Of a stretch of DNA of 64,000 nt, positions 24,186-33,311 are shown in pieces; position 1 is the first letter of the stretch; each line of letters opens with the position of its first letter. Source of the DNA: Planctomycetota bacterium (GTDB lineage: Bacteria; Planctomycetota; UBA1135; GCA-002686595); the NCBI GenBank assembly GCA_016795325.1, contig JAEUHY010000060.1, positions 124,001-188,000 on the forward strand, written 5' to 3'. The notes under the pieces are model-generated. The model ran no database searches, was not told the origin of the DNA, and was given only the letters and a program-made list of their open reading frames with translations. The position numbers and the translations under genes were made by a program.

Positions 24186-25130
24186 TCAGACGCCTTCGCT
24201 CCCGCTGGCCCGTTCGACGTGTTCGTCGGCGGGCCAGCGGCGCTGGTGCCAAGCCCACTGCTCGGGCGCGGCGCGGATCCAGCGCTCGAACACGGCGTTC
24301 ATGCGCGTGAGCAGATCCAACGCGGCCGCGCGTTTGTCCGCGCTCGCCGCGAGTTCGAGCGGCTCGTCGACGCGGATGCGGTAGCGCGCGCCTTCGCGCA
24401 CGCAGCGCACGGGCGTGAGCGGCAGGCCGCTCGCTCGCGCGAACGCGGCGGGGGCCGTCATGGTGGGGGCCGAACGGCCGAAGAACGGCGCGTCGACGTT
24501 GTCGAGTCGACGTGCGTGCAAGTCGCAGAGCAGTCCCAGCGTCTCGCCCCCGCGCAGCACGTTCAGCACCTCGCGTGGCGAGCTGTCCTGGGGCAGGCTG
24601 CGCACGCCCAACCCAGAGCGCAAGCCGACGAGCCAATCCGCGCTCGAGTCGTTGCGCTTGCGCAGACCGACCACGGCGCCGTCGAGCCCCGCGCGCCGCA
24701 GCGCCGCCGCGAGCAGCTCCCAGTTGCCCAGGTGCGCCGTGACGATGAGCACGCCGCGTCCGCGCGCGGCGCGGCGCCGCAGTTCGTCGCAGCTCGCGTC
24801 GAACTCGACGCTCGCGTCGATCCAGCGCTCGACGCGCTGGCGTTCGCGTTCGCTGCGTGCGGCGCGCGCCATCCACAGCCACTCGCGCACCAAGCGCGCG
24901 GTGTGCGTGAGCACGCCCCGCGTCAACGTCTCGCGCGCCTGCGCGTCGAGTTCGGCGCCGTAGGCGAGCGCGAGGTTGCGCTCGATGCGCCGCGCCGCGC
25001 TCGTGTGTTGAGCGGCCTGTGCTCCGGCCGCCAGCGCGACGCGGAGCAGCGGGTCGAACGGCGAACCTGCCAGGCGCGTCAGCGCATCCAGCGCACGTGC
25101 GCGAACGCGGCGGCGCAGCGGCTCAGCCAT
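24186..25130 (-). CDS. LpxL/HtrB-type lipid A acyltransferase
   Basis: 314 residues, the usual size of the lysophospholipid/lipid A acyltransferase family that adds secondary acyl chains to Kdo-lipid A at the inner membrane. The catalytic HX4E motif is in VTAHLGNWELLAAAL. The later conserved block LCDLHARRLDNVDAPFFGRSAP carries the glycine/phenylalanine-rich acceptor loop, and GLPLTPVRCVREGARYRI follows as in LpxL. The C-terminal WAWHQRRWP matches the family's 'W.HrRwk' end. The start overlaps the LPS-kinase gene end by 8 nt, so both are one unit. Specific acyl donor not inferable. Confidence 0.9.
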   Translation of the reverse strand: MAEPLRRRVRARALDALTRLAGSPFDPLLRVALAAGAQAAQHTSAARRIERNLALAYGAELDAQARETLTRGVLTHTARLVREWLWMARAARSERERQRVERWIDASVEFDASCDELRRRAARGRGVLIVTAHLGNWELLAAALRRAGLDGAVVGLRKRNDSSADWLVGLRSGLGVRSLPQDSSPREVLNVLRGGETLGLLCDLHARRLDNVDAPFFGRSAPTMTAPAAFARASGLPLTPVRCVREGARYRIRVDEPLELAASADKRAAALDLLTRMNAVFERWIRAAPEQWAWHQRRWPADEHVERASGSEGV

Positions 25131-26448
25131 GGCGCAGTCGGGCTCTCAGACGCGCGCGGCCGTGCGGGCTGGTGCGGCTCGCGGCGAGGATGCCCGCGGC
25201 GTAGGCCGCACGTTCGCGCGCGCTGAGCTGTTCGAGGTTGCGCCCGGCCAGCGCCAGGACACGCACGAGGTCCAGTCCGTCGCCGCCGCGAGGATCGGCC
25301 TCCAGCGCGCTGGTGGCGGCGAGCGCCAGCTCGTCGCGCGCGCCGCGCCACAGCACCGGCCAGCGACCGCTCGCGATGCGCAGGCGCCGGTCGGCAAGCT
25401 CCGCGCACAGCTTCCCGAGCGAGTGCAGCGCGCGTGTTCCTTCAAGCGCGAGGCCGGGCGCGACGGGCGCGCCGTCGAACGGCGCCTCCAACGCGACCCA
25501 GCGCTGCGGGCGCAAGCTGAGTGCGAGCGGACGCAGGCAGGCGAGTCCGTGTTCACTCAGGCGCGCCGCGTTGCTCCACACCGCCAGGGCTTCCCGCTCG
25601 CTCAGCTCGCGCAGCAGCAGCACCCGCGCGCGCGGCAGCCGCTCGGGCGCGGTGAAGTCCACCTGGGCGAGCGCTTCGCGCCGCACGAAGCCGTGGCGCT
25701 CGCCGTCGAGCGGTGCGCATGCGGAACTCTCCCGCAGCCAGCGCGCGCGCCGTTTGTCGACGGCCGCGCAGCGCCGGGCGCGCGCCTGCTGCTCGAGGGT
25801 CGCCGCAAGAGCGCTGCGTGAGTCGCCGGCGCGCTCGAGCACGTCCTGGGCGAGCGTCTGCGGCGCGGAGCGCAGCCATTCGAGCAGAAAGCGCGCGCGG
25901 AACTGCGGCGTCGTGCACTCGCGCGTGCCCGCGGCGAGGCTCACCAGATCGCGCCAGGCGCACGCCGGTTTCAGCCGCCGCGCGCGGCGCGCCTTGTGGA
26001 AGTCGATCGCCCAGGCGCGCCCGAGCCCGTCGAGCAACACGTTGCCCGGATGCAGGTCGGGGTGGTCGACCTGCGCGTCGTGCAGCTTGGCGAGCAGGCG
26101 CGCGAGCTCGCGCGCGAGGCGCTCGGGCGGCGCGGGCCAGGCGCGCGCCCCGCTCAGGTGCTCGGCGAGCGCGTGCGCGTCCTCGATCCACTGCATGCGG
26201 ACTTCCCAGCCGCCGTTGACGCGCTCGAGCGCCAGCGGCGCCGGCGCGCGCACGCCCCGCGCGACCAGTTCGCCGAGCAGGCGGTGCTCGCGCGCGGCGC
26301 GCGCGCGGTCGAGCGTGGCGCCGGCGAGCGAGCGGTTGGCGAAGCGCTTGACGACGGTGCGCACTCCGTCGGCGCCGCACTCCAGCCGCACGCTGCGGTG
26401 CAAGCTGTCCTTGAGGATGGAGCGCGTTTCGCTGGGCACGGCGCGCAT
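25123..26448 (-). CDS. lipopolysaccharide-kinase (WaaP/Kdo kinase)-like protein
   Basis: 441 residues from the ATG at 26448. A kinase fold of the Kdo/heptose kinase type occupies about 1-210: VVKRFANRSLAG with the ATP Lys, the catalytic loop DHPDLHPGNVLLD and the metal-binding AIDFHKARR. Such enzymes phosphorylate inner-core sugars of LPS. The C-terminal 230 residues are helical and Arg/Ala-rich; they may be a degenerate second kinase lobe. An upstream ATG at 26505 would add 19 residues but lies inside the 22-bp repeat array, so 26448 is preferred. It overlaps the lipid A acyltransferase gene and is divergent from lptF. Confidence 0.78.
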   Translation of the reverse strand: MRAVPSETRSILKDSLHRSVRLECGADGVRTVVKRFANRSLAGATLDRARAAREHRLLGELVARGVRAPAPLALERVNGGWEVRMQWIEDAHALAEHLSGARAWPAPPERLARELARLLAKLHDAQVDHPDLHPGNVLLDGLGRAWAIDFHKARRARRLKPACAWRDLVSLAAGTRECTTPQFRARFLLEWLRSAPQTLAQDVLERAGDSRSALAATLEQQARARRCAAVDKRRARWLRESSACAPLDGERHGFVRREALAQVDFTAPERLPRARVLLLRELSEREALAVWSNAARLSEHGLACLRPLALSLRPQRWVALEAPFDGAPVAPGLALEGTRALHSLGKLCAELADRRLRIASGRWPVLWRGARDELALAATSALEADPRGGDGLDLVRVLALAGRNLEQLSARERAAYAAGILAASRTSPHGRARLRARLRHG

Positions 26449-26487
26449 CCTAAGCGCGCGCGGCGCGGCGCCGTGAGTGGACGCGCC

Positions 26488-26619
26488 GTCGACGTGACGA
26501 CGCAAAGCCGTCGACCTGACGTCGCAGAGCTGTCGACCTAAGGTCGCAGAGCCGTCGACCTAAGGTCGCAGAGCCGTCGACCTAAGGTCGCAGAGCTGTC
26601 GACGCGCCGTCGAAGCGCA
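26488..26619. repeat. six-copy 22-bp tandem repeat in a divergent promoter region
   Basis: GTCGAC recurs at 26488, 26510, 26532, 26554, 26576 and 26598, a strict 22-bp period. Copies 3 and 4 are identical, copy 5 differs by one base, copy 2 by three, and the outer copies 1 and 6 are more diverged. The core of the inner copies is the inverted repeat CGACCT-A-AGGTCG. The array fills the gap between the LPS-kinase gene (minus) and lptF (plus) and ends 14 bp before the lptF -10-like hexamer. Confidence 0.9.
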
Positions 26620-26632
26620 GGCGCCGCGCCGC

Positions 26633-26638
26633 TACGAT
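26633..26638 (+). promoter_or_regulatory. -10-like hexamer TACGAT, lptF
   Basis: TACGAT, 7 nt before the GTG start of the LptF gene at 26646 and immediately after the tandem array. Places the transcription start at about the first codon. Confidence 0.5.
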
Positions 26639-26645
26639 CGGCCGC

Positions 26646-27779
26646 GTGACGCTCGAGCGCTATCTGCTGCGCCAACTGCTGGTCGGGATGACGTTCGCCG
26701 TCGCCGGCATGGCGTTCGTCGCCGTGCCGGGCATTTTGGTGCAGGCCTTCCACAAGCTCTCGGGCGTCGGCATGGGCGCGATCCTGGGCTTCTTGCCGCT
26801 CGTCCTGGTCGACCTCGTCCCGTACCTGCTGCCGATCGGCTTCCTGCTCTCGCTCGTCGCCACCTACGGCCGCATGGCCGCCGACAACGAGTGGACCGCG
26901 ATCTTGATGGCCGGCATCCATCCGCTGCGCATGTTCGTGCCGGCGGGAGTGCTCGCGCTGGCCCTGTCGGGGCTCCTGTACTTCCTCGCGACGGAAGTCT
27001 CGCCGCAGACCAAGTTCCGCCAGCGCGACTACACGAAGAACTCGGTCGTGCGCCTGTTGCGTTCGCTCAGTCCGGGGCGCACGGAACTCAAGTTCGGCGA
27101 CTTCTACCTGTCCTCGCGCGCCCGCGATCCACAGAACCGCAACCGCTTCGAGCAGGTGTTCATCCACGTGCCGCGGCGCGCCGACGAACCGGCCCAGCTT
27201 CTGTACGCCGCGACGGCGGAGTTCGGCATCGAAGAGTCGTCGATGACGATCGATCTCACCTGGCCGCGCTGGATCGGCGGTGGGATCGATGCGCGCCTCG
27301 CCAACGCGCGCATCGCGCTCGACCTCGACGAGTTGTTCGAGGTGGACGCGACGCGCCGCCACGAGTGGAGGTACCAGTCCAGCCGCGAGCTCGAGCGGCG
27401 CCTGGAGCGCACCGCTCAACTCGTCGCGAGCGAAGGCGAACAGGCGCTGGCGACCAAGACGCCGTCCGACGGCTACGCCATGCCGAACGAGCTAGCCAAG
27501 ATCGGCTTCGAACTGCACGCGCGGCGCGCCCTCGCGGCGATCTGCCCGATGTTCCTGCTGCTGGGCGTGTCGACGGGGCTGATCCTGCGGCGCGGCTCGC
27601 AGCTCACTGCGTTCGCGGCGGCTGTTCTGTATGCACTCGTCTATTACTTGCTCTCGATGCGACTTGGCAAAGGCCTGGTGGCGTCCGACGCCGTGCCGCA
27701 GTGGCTCGCGGCGTGGGGCGCTACGATCGGCGGAACGCTGCTCGGCGTCGTCATGACCGTGGTCGCGCTGAGGCGCTGA
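26646..27779 (+). CDS. lptF: LptF/LptG-family LPS transport permease (first copy)
   Basis: 377 residues from a GTG start. YjgP/YjgQ architecture: three N-terminal membrane helices (about 10-30, 44-75, 92-115), a beta-jellyroll periplasmic domain (about 120-285) and three C-terminal helices (about 290-375). Conserved NEWTAILMAGIHPLRM follows helix 2, matching the family's 'sEl.ALraaGis' coupling-helix region that contacts the LptB ATPase. With LptG it forms the inner-membrane part of the LPS exporter. Gene order with a second copy 5 nt downstream matches usual lptFG pairs; which copy is F and which is G rests on order alone. Confidence 0.85.
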   Translation: MTLERYLLRQLLVGMTFAVAGMAFVAVPGILVQAFHKLSGVGMGAILGFLPLVLVDLVPYLLPIGFLLSLVATYGRMAADNEWTAILMAGIHPLRMFVPAGVLALALSGLLYFLATEVSPQTKFRQRDYTKNSVVRLLRSLSPGRTELKFGDFYLSSRARDPQNRNRFEQVFIHVPRRADEPAQLLYAATAEFGIEESSMTIDLTWPRWIGGGIDARLANARIALDLDELFEVDATRRHEWRYQSSRELERRLERTAQLVASEGEQALATKTPSDGYAMPNELAKIGFELHARRALAAICPMFLLLGVSTGLILRRGSQLTAFAAAVLYALVYYLLSMRLGKGLVASDAVPQWLAAWGATIGGTLLGVVMTVVALRR

Positions 27780-30398: not shown

Positions 30399-30473
30399 AT
30401 TGCGCTGGCCCGGATTGCGCTGGCCCTTATTGCGCTGGCCCTTATTGCGCTGGCCCTTATTGCGCTGGCCCAG
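30399..30473. repeat. five-copy 15-bp tandem repeat
   Basis: Unit attgcgctggccctt; copies start at 30399, 30414, 30429, 30444 and 30459. The invariant core attgcgctggcc is identical in all five; only the three bases between cores vary (cgg, ctt, ctt, ctt after copies 1-4 with slight edge changes). It lies in the 207-bp gap between the convergent TPR lipoprotein and BamE-like genes. Confidence 0.92.
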
Positions 30474-30540: not shown

Positions 30541-30882
30541 TCAGTCGCGCCACGCGCGCAGCACGCGACCGTCGCGGAACTCGACGTAGGCGCGGCGTTC
30601 GGCGCGCGCCTTGGGATCGGATTCGACGCGGTAGACGACCGCGCCGCCCGAGGACTTGCGCTCGCGCAGGGCCCAGGTCCACAGCTCGAGGCCGTCGTCG
30701 AGCTGCACCTTCTCGCGCGGCTCGCCCAGCAGATAGAGCACGAACTTGCGGCCTGAGCCCGGCTCGATGCGATCGAGGGTCTGCGCCCCGATGTCGATGT
30801 TGCGGGTGGCGAGCGGCGCGGCGCCGCAACTGCCGAGCGCGGTCGCTGCGGCGACAAGACAGACCAGCACGAAGCGCGACAT
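30541..30882 (-). CDS. small BamE/SmpA-like lipoprotein
   Basis: 113 residues with a clear lipobox LGSC (C19). The mature part (about 94 residues) contains LYLLGEPREKVQLDDGLELW and a beta-rich end YVEFRDGRVLRAWRD, resembling the two-helix/three-strand BamE-SmpA fold in which a 'lG.P' motif precedes a sheet. BamE aids outer-membrane protein insertion; similarity here is by pattern only. The ATG at 30882 is chosen over 30894 because a TATGCT hexamer lies exactly 7 nt upstream and would overlap the longer start. Confidence 0.68.
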   Translation of the reverse strand: MSRFVLVCLVAAATALGSCGAAPLATRNIDIGAQTLDRIEPGSGRKFVLYLLGEPREKVQLDDGLELWTWALRERKSSGGAVVYRVESDPKARAERRAYVEFRDGRVLRAWRD

Positions 30883-30889
30883 GCGAGGC

Positions 30890-30895
30890 AGCATA
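30890..30895 (-). promoter_or_regulatory. -10-like hexamer TATGCT, BamE-like gene
   Basis: TATGCT on the minus strand, 7 nt before the ATG at 30882. Confidence 0.45.
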
Positions 30896-30968
30896 GCTGG
30901 CGCCTGTCCATGCAGGTCAACCTGCCGCCGTACATCGCGCCACCCGTCGAGCCGTCGAGGTGCAGCGC

Positions 30969-30974
30969 TACACT
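30969..30974 (+). promoter_or_regulatory. -10-like hexamer TACACT, TIM-barrel lipoprotein gene
   Basis: TACACT, 9 nt before the GTG at 30984. It decides that start over the GTG at 30960, which would be upstream of the transcription start. Confidence 0.45.
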
Positions 30975-30983
30975 CACCCGCGC

Positions 30984-33311
30984 GTGTCGCCGTACGCCTC
31001 GGATCCGCGCCCATTCGTGGCGTTGCTGCTCGCGCTCCTCGCGGCGGCGTGCACGCGGCCGGACGTGTCGAGCGAGGACTGCGGGCGCCTCGCGCTCGAA
31101 GGTGCGACGCGGCTCGCCGTGCGCGTGCCGTCCGAACGTGCGCAGCGCGTGCTCGCTCCGCTCGCGGACGAACTCGAGCGCAGCCAGCGTTGGCGGGTCG
31201 AATGGGTCGTCGGCTCGACGTCCGACGCCGAACCCGATCCGCGGGCGGCGCAGCTGTGGTTCGCCGACGCGCTCACGCCGGGCATCGGCGCGCTCGCCCA
31301 GCGCCACGGCGTGGTGTTCGAACACAGCGGCGCGTTCTGGTTTGCGGGAGAGCGCTTCGCCGCGCCGGGGGACGGCGTGCAACTCACCCTGCCCGATCCC
31401 GCGCGCCCCGGCTGGCCGCTCGAAGTGGTGCTCGCGCCGAGCGCCGAGGACGCCGTGGCGCTGGCGCGCTCGCTCGCGCCGAGTTGGCGCCCCGGCGCGC
31501 TGCTGTGGCGCGGCGGACTGGTCTCCAAGGCCTTGCGCGGCATGCCCGGCGGTCCGCTCGCGAGCGTCTCCGGCGGTCCGGTGTTCGATCTCGTCCGCTC
31601 GGCGCCGGTGCGCGTGCAGCGCGACGGCGTGCTCGAGCACCACCTGCACGGCGACGTACCGGCCGCCGCATTCGAGCACTACGCCAAGCTCGCCAAGCGC
31701 TGCGCGCAGGACGTGGAGAAGTTGCTCGGACCGCAACCGCCGGGCGCCGCGCCGCTGCGCGTCCACGTCTGGCCGCGGCTGGACCAGTTCGCGAGCGCCA
31801 CCGGCGTGTGGGATCTCGCCGCGCCCGGCGCACGCGCCGGCGAGCTCCACGTGCTCGTCGCGAGCGCCGCGCTGCACGACGGCGGCGCGCAGATCGCGCG
31901 GGAACTCGCCATGCGCACCGCGGGCCCGCCGCCGGAGAGTTGGGCGCTCGCCGCACTCGGGGTCGAAGCCAGCCAAGGCTGGTTCGGAGCTCCGCTCGAG
32001 GTGGCGCTCCAACTGGCGTGCGCCGCCGCGGACTCCGCCGAGGCTTGGCGCGCTCCGCCCGCGCACGCTTCTCCGCATGTGTTCCAGCCGCTGCGTGCGC
32101 TGGCGCTGCGCACGGCGTTGCGTGGGCTCGACCTCCAGGCGCGGCGCGACGCGTGGAGTTCGGGTCGACTCGCCGAGCGCGTCGACCCGCAGCGCTTCGC
32201 CGAGCGCTTCGAGAAGCTCGCCGGACTTGGGCGGGCCCTGCTGGAGACGCGGCGTGCGGCGCGCGACGCGCTCGGCGTGCGCGACGGCGTGCATTTGGTG
32301 CAGGCGCGCGACGACTACGGTTGGCGCGCGCAGGGTTACGGTTCGTCCGCGTGCGACGAGGCGTTGAAGGGCTTGGCCGGCCTGGGCGCGGACGCGGTGG
32401 TCTTCCAGCCGACCTACTTCGAGCGCACGCCGCCGCGCGAGTGGTGGGGCGCCCGGCTCGGAGGTCCGTTCTCCTGCGATGCGAGCGACGCCGCGCTGTG
32501 GGCCGCGTTTCGCAGCGCGCGCGCGCTCGGGTTGCGCGTGGTGTTCGCGCCCGAACTGCTTTCGACGCCGACCGGCGCCGCCACCGTGCGGCGCGTGGGC
32601 GAGGACGAAACCGCGCGCGGCGAGCGCCTTGCGATGTGGCGCGCGCTGGTCGAGCACGCAGCGCTGCTCGCCGAACTGACCGGCGTCGACGTGCTGATCC
32701 TCGGCGAGCGCGCTTCGAAGATCGCGTTCGAGTGGGGCCGGCCGTGGGACGAACCCGAAGCGGCGCGGGCGCCGGGCGCTCCCGGCCCGTTCGCCGCGAT
32801 CTTCGCCAGCGCGCGGCGGAGCTTTTCGGGCGCGGTGAGCTACACGCTGTTCCTCGACGGCGAGCAGAAGAACTTCGCGCACGCGGACGACTGCGAGCCG
32901 CTGCTCGTGCGTGCGAAGCTGAGCCTCAGCGTGCCGCAGCGTCCGGGCGAACCTCCGACGGATCTGGAGCTGCGCAACCTGTTCGAGGTGCAACTCGGCC
33001 GCGCGAAGGACCTCGCGGGCGGCGCGGCGCGGCCGCTGTGGTGGATGGACATCGGATTCCCGCCGACGTCGGAGGGCTGGCGCGACAGCGACTTCGCGCG
33101 CGGCGGTTACGACGCGCCGGAGCAGGCGCGGTTGGCGGCTGCGTTCGCGGTTGCGCTGCAGCGCGCGCGCGCCGCGGGCCGTGCGCCCGACGCGGTGTTC
33201 TTCGGGCACTGGAGCACCGATCCCGAGCACGGCAACGGCGTCGATCGCAGCTACACGCTCCAGAACCGTTCGGCGGCCGAGAGCCTGCCGGCGCTGCTCG
33301 AGCGCCCCTGA
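30984..33311 (+). CDS. lipoprotein with C-terminal TIM-barrel (GH113-like) domain
   Basis: 775 residues from the GTG at 30984. A signal sequence ends LLALLAAAC (C23). The N-terminal 440 residues are Ala/Arg-rich with a segment (AKLAKRCAQDVEKLLGPQPP, then 'VHVWPRLDQF') that recalls secreted peptidase-like proteins, but no catalytic His-Glu-x-x-His is present. From about 450 the sequence GYGSSACDEALKGLAGLG, DAVVFQPTYFER, RVVFAPELL, DVLILGERASKI, WWMDIGFPP and DAVFFGHWSTDPEHGNGV reads as strands of a TIM barrel like that of GH113 mannanases. Likely a glycan-binding or hydrolytic surface lipoprotein. recG follows 7 nt downstream. Family assignment is tentative. Confidence 0.7.
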   Translation: MSPYASDPRPFVALLLALLAAACTRPDVSSEDCGRLALEGATRLAVRVPSERAQRVLAPLADELERSQRWRVEWVVGSTSDAEPDPRAAQLWFADALTPGIGALAQRHGVVFEHSGAFWFAGERFAAPGDGVQLTLPDPARPGWPLEVVLAPSAEDAVALARSLAPSWRPGALLWRGGLVSKALRGMPGGPLASVSGGPVFDLVRSAPVRVQRDGVLEHHLHGDVPAAAFEHYAKLAKRCAQDVEKLLGPQPPGAAPLRVHVWPRLDQFASATGVWDLAAPGARAGELHVLVASAALHDGGAQIARELAMRTAGPPPESWALAALGVEASQGWFGAPLEVALQLACAAADSAEAWRAPPAHASPHVFQPLRALALRTALRGLDLQARRDAWSSGRLAERVDPQRFAERFEKLAGLGRALLETRRAARDALGVRDGVHLVQARDDYGWRAQGYGSSACDEALKGLAGLGADAVVFQPTYFERTPPREWWGARLGGPFSCDASDAALWAAFRSARALGLRVVFAPELLSTPTGAATVRRVGEDETARGERLAMWRALVEHAALLAELTGVDVLILGERASKIAFEWGRPWDEPEAARAPGAPGPFAAIFASARRSFSGAVSYTLFLDGEQKNFAHADDCEPLLVRAKLSLSVPQRPGEPPTDLELRNLFEVQLGRAKDLAGGAARPLWWMDIGFPPTSEGWRDSDFARGGYDAPEQARLAAAFAVALQRARAAGRAPDAVFFGHWSTDPEHGNGVDRSYTLQNRSAAESLPALLERP

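Follow-up and report, generated by a model that had tools for sequence, protein, structure and literature searches.

Architecture of the array

What is a sixfold repetition of GTCGAC at regular spacing doing between the divergent genes for an LPS kinase and the LPS export permease LptF: does it hold a row of operators, does it tune the flanking promoters through its copy number, or is it a repeat that has simply grown there? We analyzed the array within a 64,000-nucleotide stretch (hereafter the window) of a Planctomycetota MAG (6.48 Mb, 70% GC, ~90% completeness), the one genome of its species considered here, in which repeat copy number may reflect assembly. The six GTCGAC motifs begin at positions 26488, 26510, 26532, 26554, 26576 and 26598, and every step is exactly 22 bp; this periodicity, which an earlier note on the same DNA had pointed out, is confirmed over 26488–26603 and lies far above chance. 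TRF delimits the array at 26485–26603, with a period of 22, 5.4 copies, 91% matches, no indels and a score of 175, the highest in the window. Four matches to the 22-bp unit with at most three mismatches occur in the window against 0.00 expected, and because shuffled windows give none at this threshold, chance is excluded for the array. Head-to-tail, near-identical units of 10–100 bp are the hallmark of minisatellites (VNTRs), and the array has this form. Its finer period is 11 bp, GTCGACCTAAG alternating with GTCGCAGAGCC, and GTCG recurs in 11-bp register (26488, 26510, 26521, 26532 and so on to 26609). The copies at 26529–26594 are nearly identical and the outermost copies are degenerate. The repeat features are as follows:

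26485 to 26603, no strand: tandem array, 22-bp unit GCCGTCGACCTAAGGTCGCAGA, a dimer of the 11-mers GTCGACCTAAG / GTCGCAGAGCC, 5.4 copies
26480 to 26492, plus strand: left copy of the 13-bp direct repeat GACGCGCCGTCGA, bounding a 121-bp expansion
26601 to 26613, plus strand: right copy of GACGCGCCGTCGA, 121 bp (11 × 11) from the left copy

Genes and putative divergent promoters

The neighbors had been named correctly in the earlier note: Pfam assigns the LPS kinase (PF06293) to the minus strand and the LptF/LptG permease (PF03739) to the plus strand, on which a second LptF/LptG permease, also identified by Pfam, follows lptF. The genes and their putative promoter elements are:

25123 to 26439, minus strand: LPS kinase, Kdo/WaaP family, PF06293; GTG start at 26439 placed by homology
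26646 to 27779, plus strand: lptF, LPS export permease, PF03739, from Pfam and homologues
26610 to 26615, plus strand: putative lptF −35 hexamer TCGAAG, from sequence comparison; conserved with its 17-bp spacer in a same-genus relative
26633 to 26638, plus strand: putative lptF −10 TACGAT, 7 bp before the GTG start, leaderless-type
26447 to 26452, minus strand: putative kinase −10 TAGGAT, 7 bp before the GTG at 26439, read by eye

A mechanical ORF call begins the kinase at a TTG at 26505, inside the array; this start is not credible, and homology favors the GTG at 26439. A TANNNT box stands 7–10 bp ahead of the lptF start in eight of the nine family members examined, and the kinase −10 has matching TANNAT counterparts in four relatives (L141, L142, L143 and L023). 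Because the TACGAT and TAGGAT boxes end 7 bp before the GTG starts, lptF and the kinase look, judging from sequence, like leaderless genes transcribed from back-to-back promoters. A sigma-70 consensus scan found no promoter, the putative lptF −35 included, and a terminator scan returned nothing. TANNNT boxes ahead of lptF, and similar ones ahead of the kinase, occur family-wide (the window, L141, L142, L143, L023, L024, L033 and L036), and in these Planctomycetota the two genes seem as a rule to be transcribed without a leader.

The earlier note had placed the array across the −25 to −145 region of the lptF promoter, which needs correction: the last GTCGAAG of the array coincides with the putative −35, so that the 3′ end overlaps 26610–26615. 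Repeats that tune promoters lie within or just upstream of them, and the array does end at the putative −35, in a promoter recognized from conservation only. As both putative promoters stand between the array and the genes, the array should fall outside either transcript, and we set aside an RNA-level role (thermometer or attenuator). A 13-bp perfect inverted repeat that flanks the array (26460–26472 and 26620–26632) was dropped as a candidate feature, since an inverted repeat of this length is reached in 26% of Markov-resampled sequences.

Array-free relatives and the origin of the array

Our close comparison is with one same-genus genome, Planctomycetaceae bacterium PLA3 (G001), which has the same divergent gene pair with 77% identity for lptF and 61% for the kinase. 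The PLA3 spacer has no array and keeps TCGAAG, the 17-bp spacing and TACGAT; just upstream, GGACGCGCTG is directly joined to GTCGAAGCGC, and GGACGCGC..GTCGAAGCGC is uninterrupted. In the window, 121 bp (11 × 11) lie between GGACGCGCC and GTCGAAGCGC, with the 13-bp GACGCGCCGTCGA at either end. The kinase–lptF gap measures 206 bp here versus 127 bp in PLA3, 95 bp in L142, 93 bp in L143 and 79 bp in L023, and subtraction of the 121 bp leaves a spacer of 85 bp, inside the 79–127 bp range of the relatives. More distant relatives are likewise array-free, and the array was hence most simply gained in the host lineage; such lineage-specific presence at a conserved site, array-free in PLA3 and shorter in the others, is characteristic of minisatellites. 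Moreover, 121 being 11 × 11, the direct repeat at the boundaries keeps the register of the array, which slippage or unequal exchange predicts. The corresponding gap of PLA3 carries an unrelated near-palindrome, GCACGCGCCTCGCGCGCGAGGCGTGC (L022:1413–1441), which indicates that the kinase–lptF gap is labile in both genomes.

A clean array-free site in a relative, together with a direct repeat at the array ends, would also suit a mobile or dispersed element of the REP/MITE type that had inserted here and duplicated a 13-bp target. However, REP and MITE families are recognized by scattered copies, and no second copy exists anywhere in the genome; the 11-bp register of the direct repeat is also something that a target duplication does not need. 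We regard such an insertion as extremely improbable. Searches for the 22-bp unit gave chance-level matches only in 80 other family genomes, and exact scans of two public collections (genome_contigs and viral_contigs) gave no match. Of the three outcomes that the earlier note had named as counting against its proposal (the third being no effect of copy number on expression), lack of conservation in relatives is what we find, and random scatter of the unit through the genome is not seen. The confinement of the unit to one locus speaks against a regulon and likewise against membership in a dispersed repeat family.

The dyads as candidate operators

Each inner unit had been described as carrying the inverted repeat CGACCT-A-AGGTCG, and cooperative binding of a dimeric regulator had been proposed from it. 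The perfect dyads are these:

26534 to 26546, 26556 to 26568 and 26578 to 26590, no strand: three perfect dyads CGACCTAAGGTCG, all within 26534 to 26590

The description holds for the copies at 26534, 26556 and 26578 and fails for the inner copy at 26512, which reads CGACCTGACGTCG and in which the dyad is broken with no compensating change; the dyad is perfect in three of the six array copies, or three of the four inner ones. The accompanying claim that all copies face the same side of the helix stands locally and not along the whole array: with 10.5 bp in a helical turn, a step of 22 bp adds ~34 degrees, which amounts to ~171 degrees from the first copy to the sixth, and exact same-face phasing holds only at 11.0 bp per turn.

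A dimeric regulator that binds each dyad, its copies cooperating to control lptF and the kinase, would account for dyads with 6-bp arms in three copies, for their 22-bp spacing and for their position between divergent promoters. An operator array is nevertheless expected to carry the dyad in each copy, in contrast to the broken dyads of the remaining copies, and to be conserved with its orthologous genes or to have further sites, whereas relatives that keep both genes and promoters have no array. Indeed, the exact dyad has no further site in the 6.48-Mb genome outside the array, and a whole-genome search for a dyad regulon allowing up to two mismatches yielded 75 near matches versus 73 for a reversed-pattern control. 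Shuffling the unit gives arms of at least 6 bp in 4% of cases, and 10% of the 22-mers from intergenic DNA of the same genome have them too; the dyad by itself is hence weak evidence for operators. Among the Pfam-checked neighbors (acyltransferase, kinase and two LptF/LptG permeases), none has a DNA-binding domain. Taken with these results, control by a cooperative dimeric regulator is very unlikely.

Minisatellites across the host genome

We surveyed 1.66 Mb of the host (about a quarter of its genome, with gene calls from a crude script) for tandem repeats. Counting non-overlapping arrays with 2.5 copies or more in intergenic DNA, we found 47 in the host and 5–15 in three Markov controls. Scores of at least 80 are reached by 21 of the host arrays and scores of at least 120 by 10, versus none at either threshold in the controls. 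A 0.4-Mb sample of PLA3 contains three intergenic arrays, none of them scoring at least 80 or at least 120, which is the background level. The host arrays have periods of 10–39 and units that are almost all unrelated to one another, as independent slippage predicts, and their abundance marks the host genome as one in which minisatellites in general grow readily or are tolerated. The contrast between the array-rich host and PLA3 suggests either that the growth or tolerance of repeats changed in one lineage or that assembly affected the counts.

Arrays are rarer than expected between divergent genes (3 of 45, against 18% of intergenic bases), most others in the host lying in tandem or convergent gaps. 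This scarcity is consistent with most insertions into promoters being harmful and with the lptF array being tolerated outside the core promoters.

Other repeats were seen in the course of this survey. The window holds a second array at 30399–30471 (15 bp × 4.9, ATTGCGCTGGCCCTT), just past the 3′ end of the minus-strand ORF 30541–31014. The longest short-period array in the sample is a 15-bp array of 33.7 copies (GCGCCGGTCGAGCAA; L109:12066–12570), which is absent from the intergenic list and hence probably coding. A 24-bp array (GTCGAGCCTTTGGTCGCGAACTGA; L173:10877–10992) has a unit superficially similar to that of the lptF array and was rejected as a relative, sharing no 10-mer with it and having no comparable dyad. 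A dispersed inverted-repeat element with arms AGCCACGGAGGCACGGAG / CTCCGTGCCTCCGTGGCT is represented by 14 exact arm copies in 1.66 Mb of the host (sites include L089:5480–5956, L177:8021–8495, L153:2448–2848 and L159:17710–17870) and is sometimes tandemly duplicated in units of 166–204 bp; none occurs in 0.4 Mb of PLA3.

A probable slippage-born minisatellite between LPS promoters

We consider it likely that the array is an intergenic minisatellite, born recently by slippage between divergent promoters, and it probably has little regulatory effect. Of the two explanations offered in the earlier note, a recently expanded repeat is the one well backed by the near-identical inner and degenerate outer copies, the array-free same-genus site and the many minisatellites of the host. 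We hypothesize that replication slippage (or unequal exchange) copied a short GTCGA-containing stretch beside the lptF −35, 11-bp units probably coming first and 22-bp units later, and that 121 bp were thereby gained between the divergent leaderless-type promoters after the split from the nearest sequenced relative. Lying outside both core promoters, the array would have been tolerated, and it may now serve mainly to keep the two −35 regions apart, as a spacer, with a probably mild effect on the expression of lptF and the kinase. Two points run counter to this explanation: the position in a divergent gap is less usual, and the 22-bp period and the dyad are together suggestive of binding sites.

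The array could alternatively be a variable-number repeat, in which slippage alters the spacing of upstream sites to the lptF and kinase promoters and so generates variable surface LPS. Such a role would suit an array immediately upstream of the putative lptF −35, between divergent LPS-gene promoters, with identical inner copies that make a recent change in copy number likely; precedents are the 7-bp repeats in the hmwA promoters of H. influenzae (PMC2424069) and the nadA repeat (PMC2791445). However, the array is known from one genome, and with similar arrays found genome-wide, mostly in tandem or convergent gaps, a promoter role is not needed to explain one more. LptF is also presumably an export permease that the cell cannot do without and not a variable surface antigen, and strong switching would then be costly. 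We judge a tuning role unlikely. Distinctly improbable is the more specific idea that the 11-bp GTCG ladder, starting from the lptF −35, is a self-made tuning device for both divergent LPS promoters; if true, slippage would copy the sequence next to the −35 in steps of one helical turn, the number of turns would set output, and the locus would be a planctomycete contingency locus for outer-membrane LPS.

Regarded as a slippage-born minisatellite, the array is ordinary, one of dozens in the intergenic regions of its host. It is also a clean, polarizable tandem expansion: the bidirectional promoter where it sits is conserved, and a relative without the array is available for comparison. If its copy number altered expression, the locus would have a tunable promoter for LPS export, which to our knowledge is unusual outside the Proteobacteria. 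Of possible wider interest is the difference between a minisatellite-rich host genome and a relative near background.

Comparison with known systems

The lptF array resembles the intergenic minisatellites (VNTRs) of other bacteria (PMC6749651) in its short head-to-tail units, its noncoding and species-specific nature and the presence of many unrelated arrays in the same genome, and differs from them in lying exactly between divergent promoters. The same survey of prokaryotic satellites lists 29 for Rhodopirellula baltica (Planctomycetes), a count that is not comparable with our census, as the survey applies its own size limits. With hmw1A and hmw2A of Haemophilus influenzae, the array shares a tandem repeat in the promoter region whose copy number could alter expression. 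Those promoters have a 7-bp unit in 9–28 copies, with measured variation and effect (more repeats generally give less mRNA; PMC2424069), whereas the lptF array has a 22-bp (11-bp) unit in ~5 copies upstream of the −35. The nadA repeat of Neisseria meningitidis (PMC2791445) is likewise an upstream promoter-region repeat that shifts the spacing of distal elements; in contrast to the lptF array, it has operators assigned to a known repressor, NadR, on its flanks. The hmwA and nadA precedents show that modulation of expression by promoter repeat length can happen, and for the lptF array they offer an analogy.
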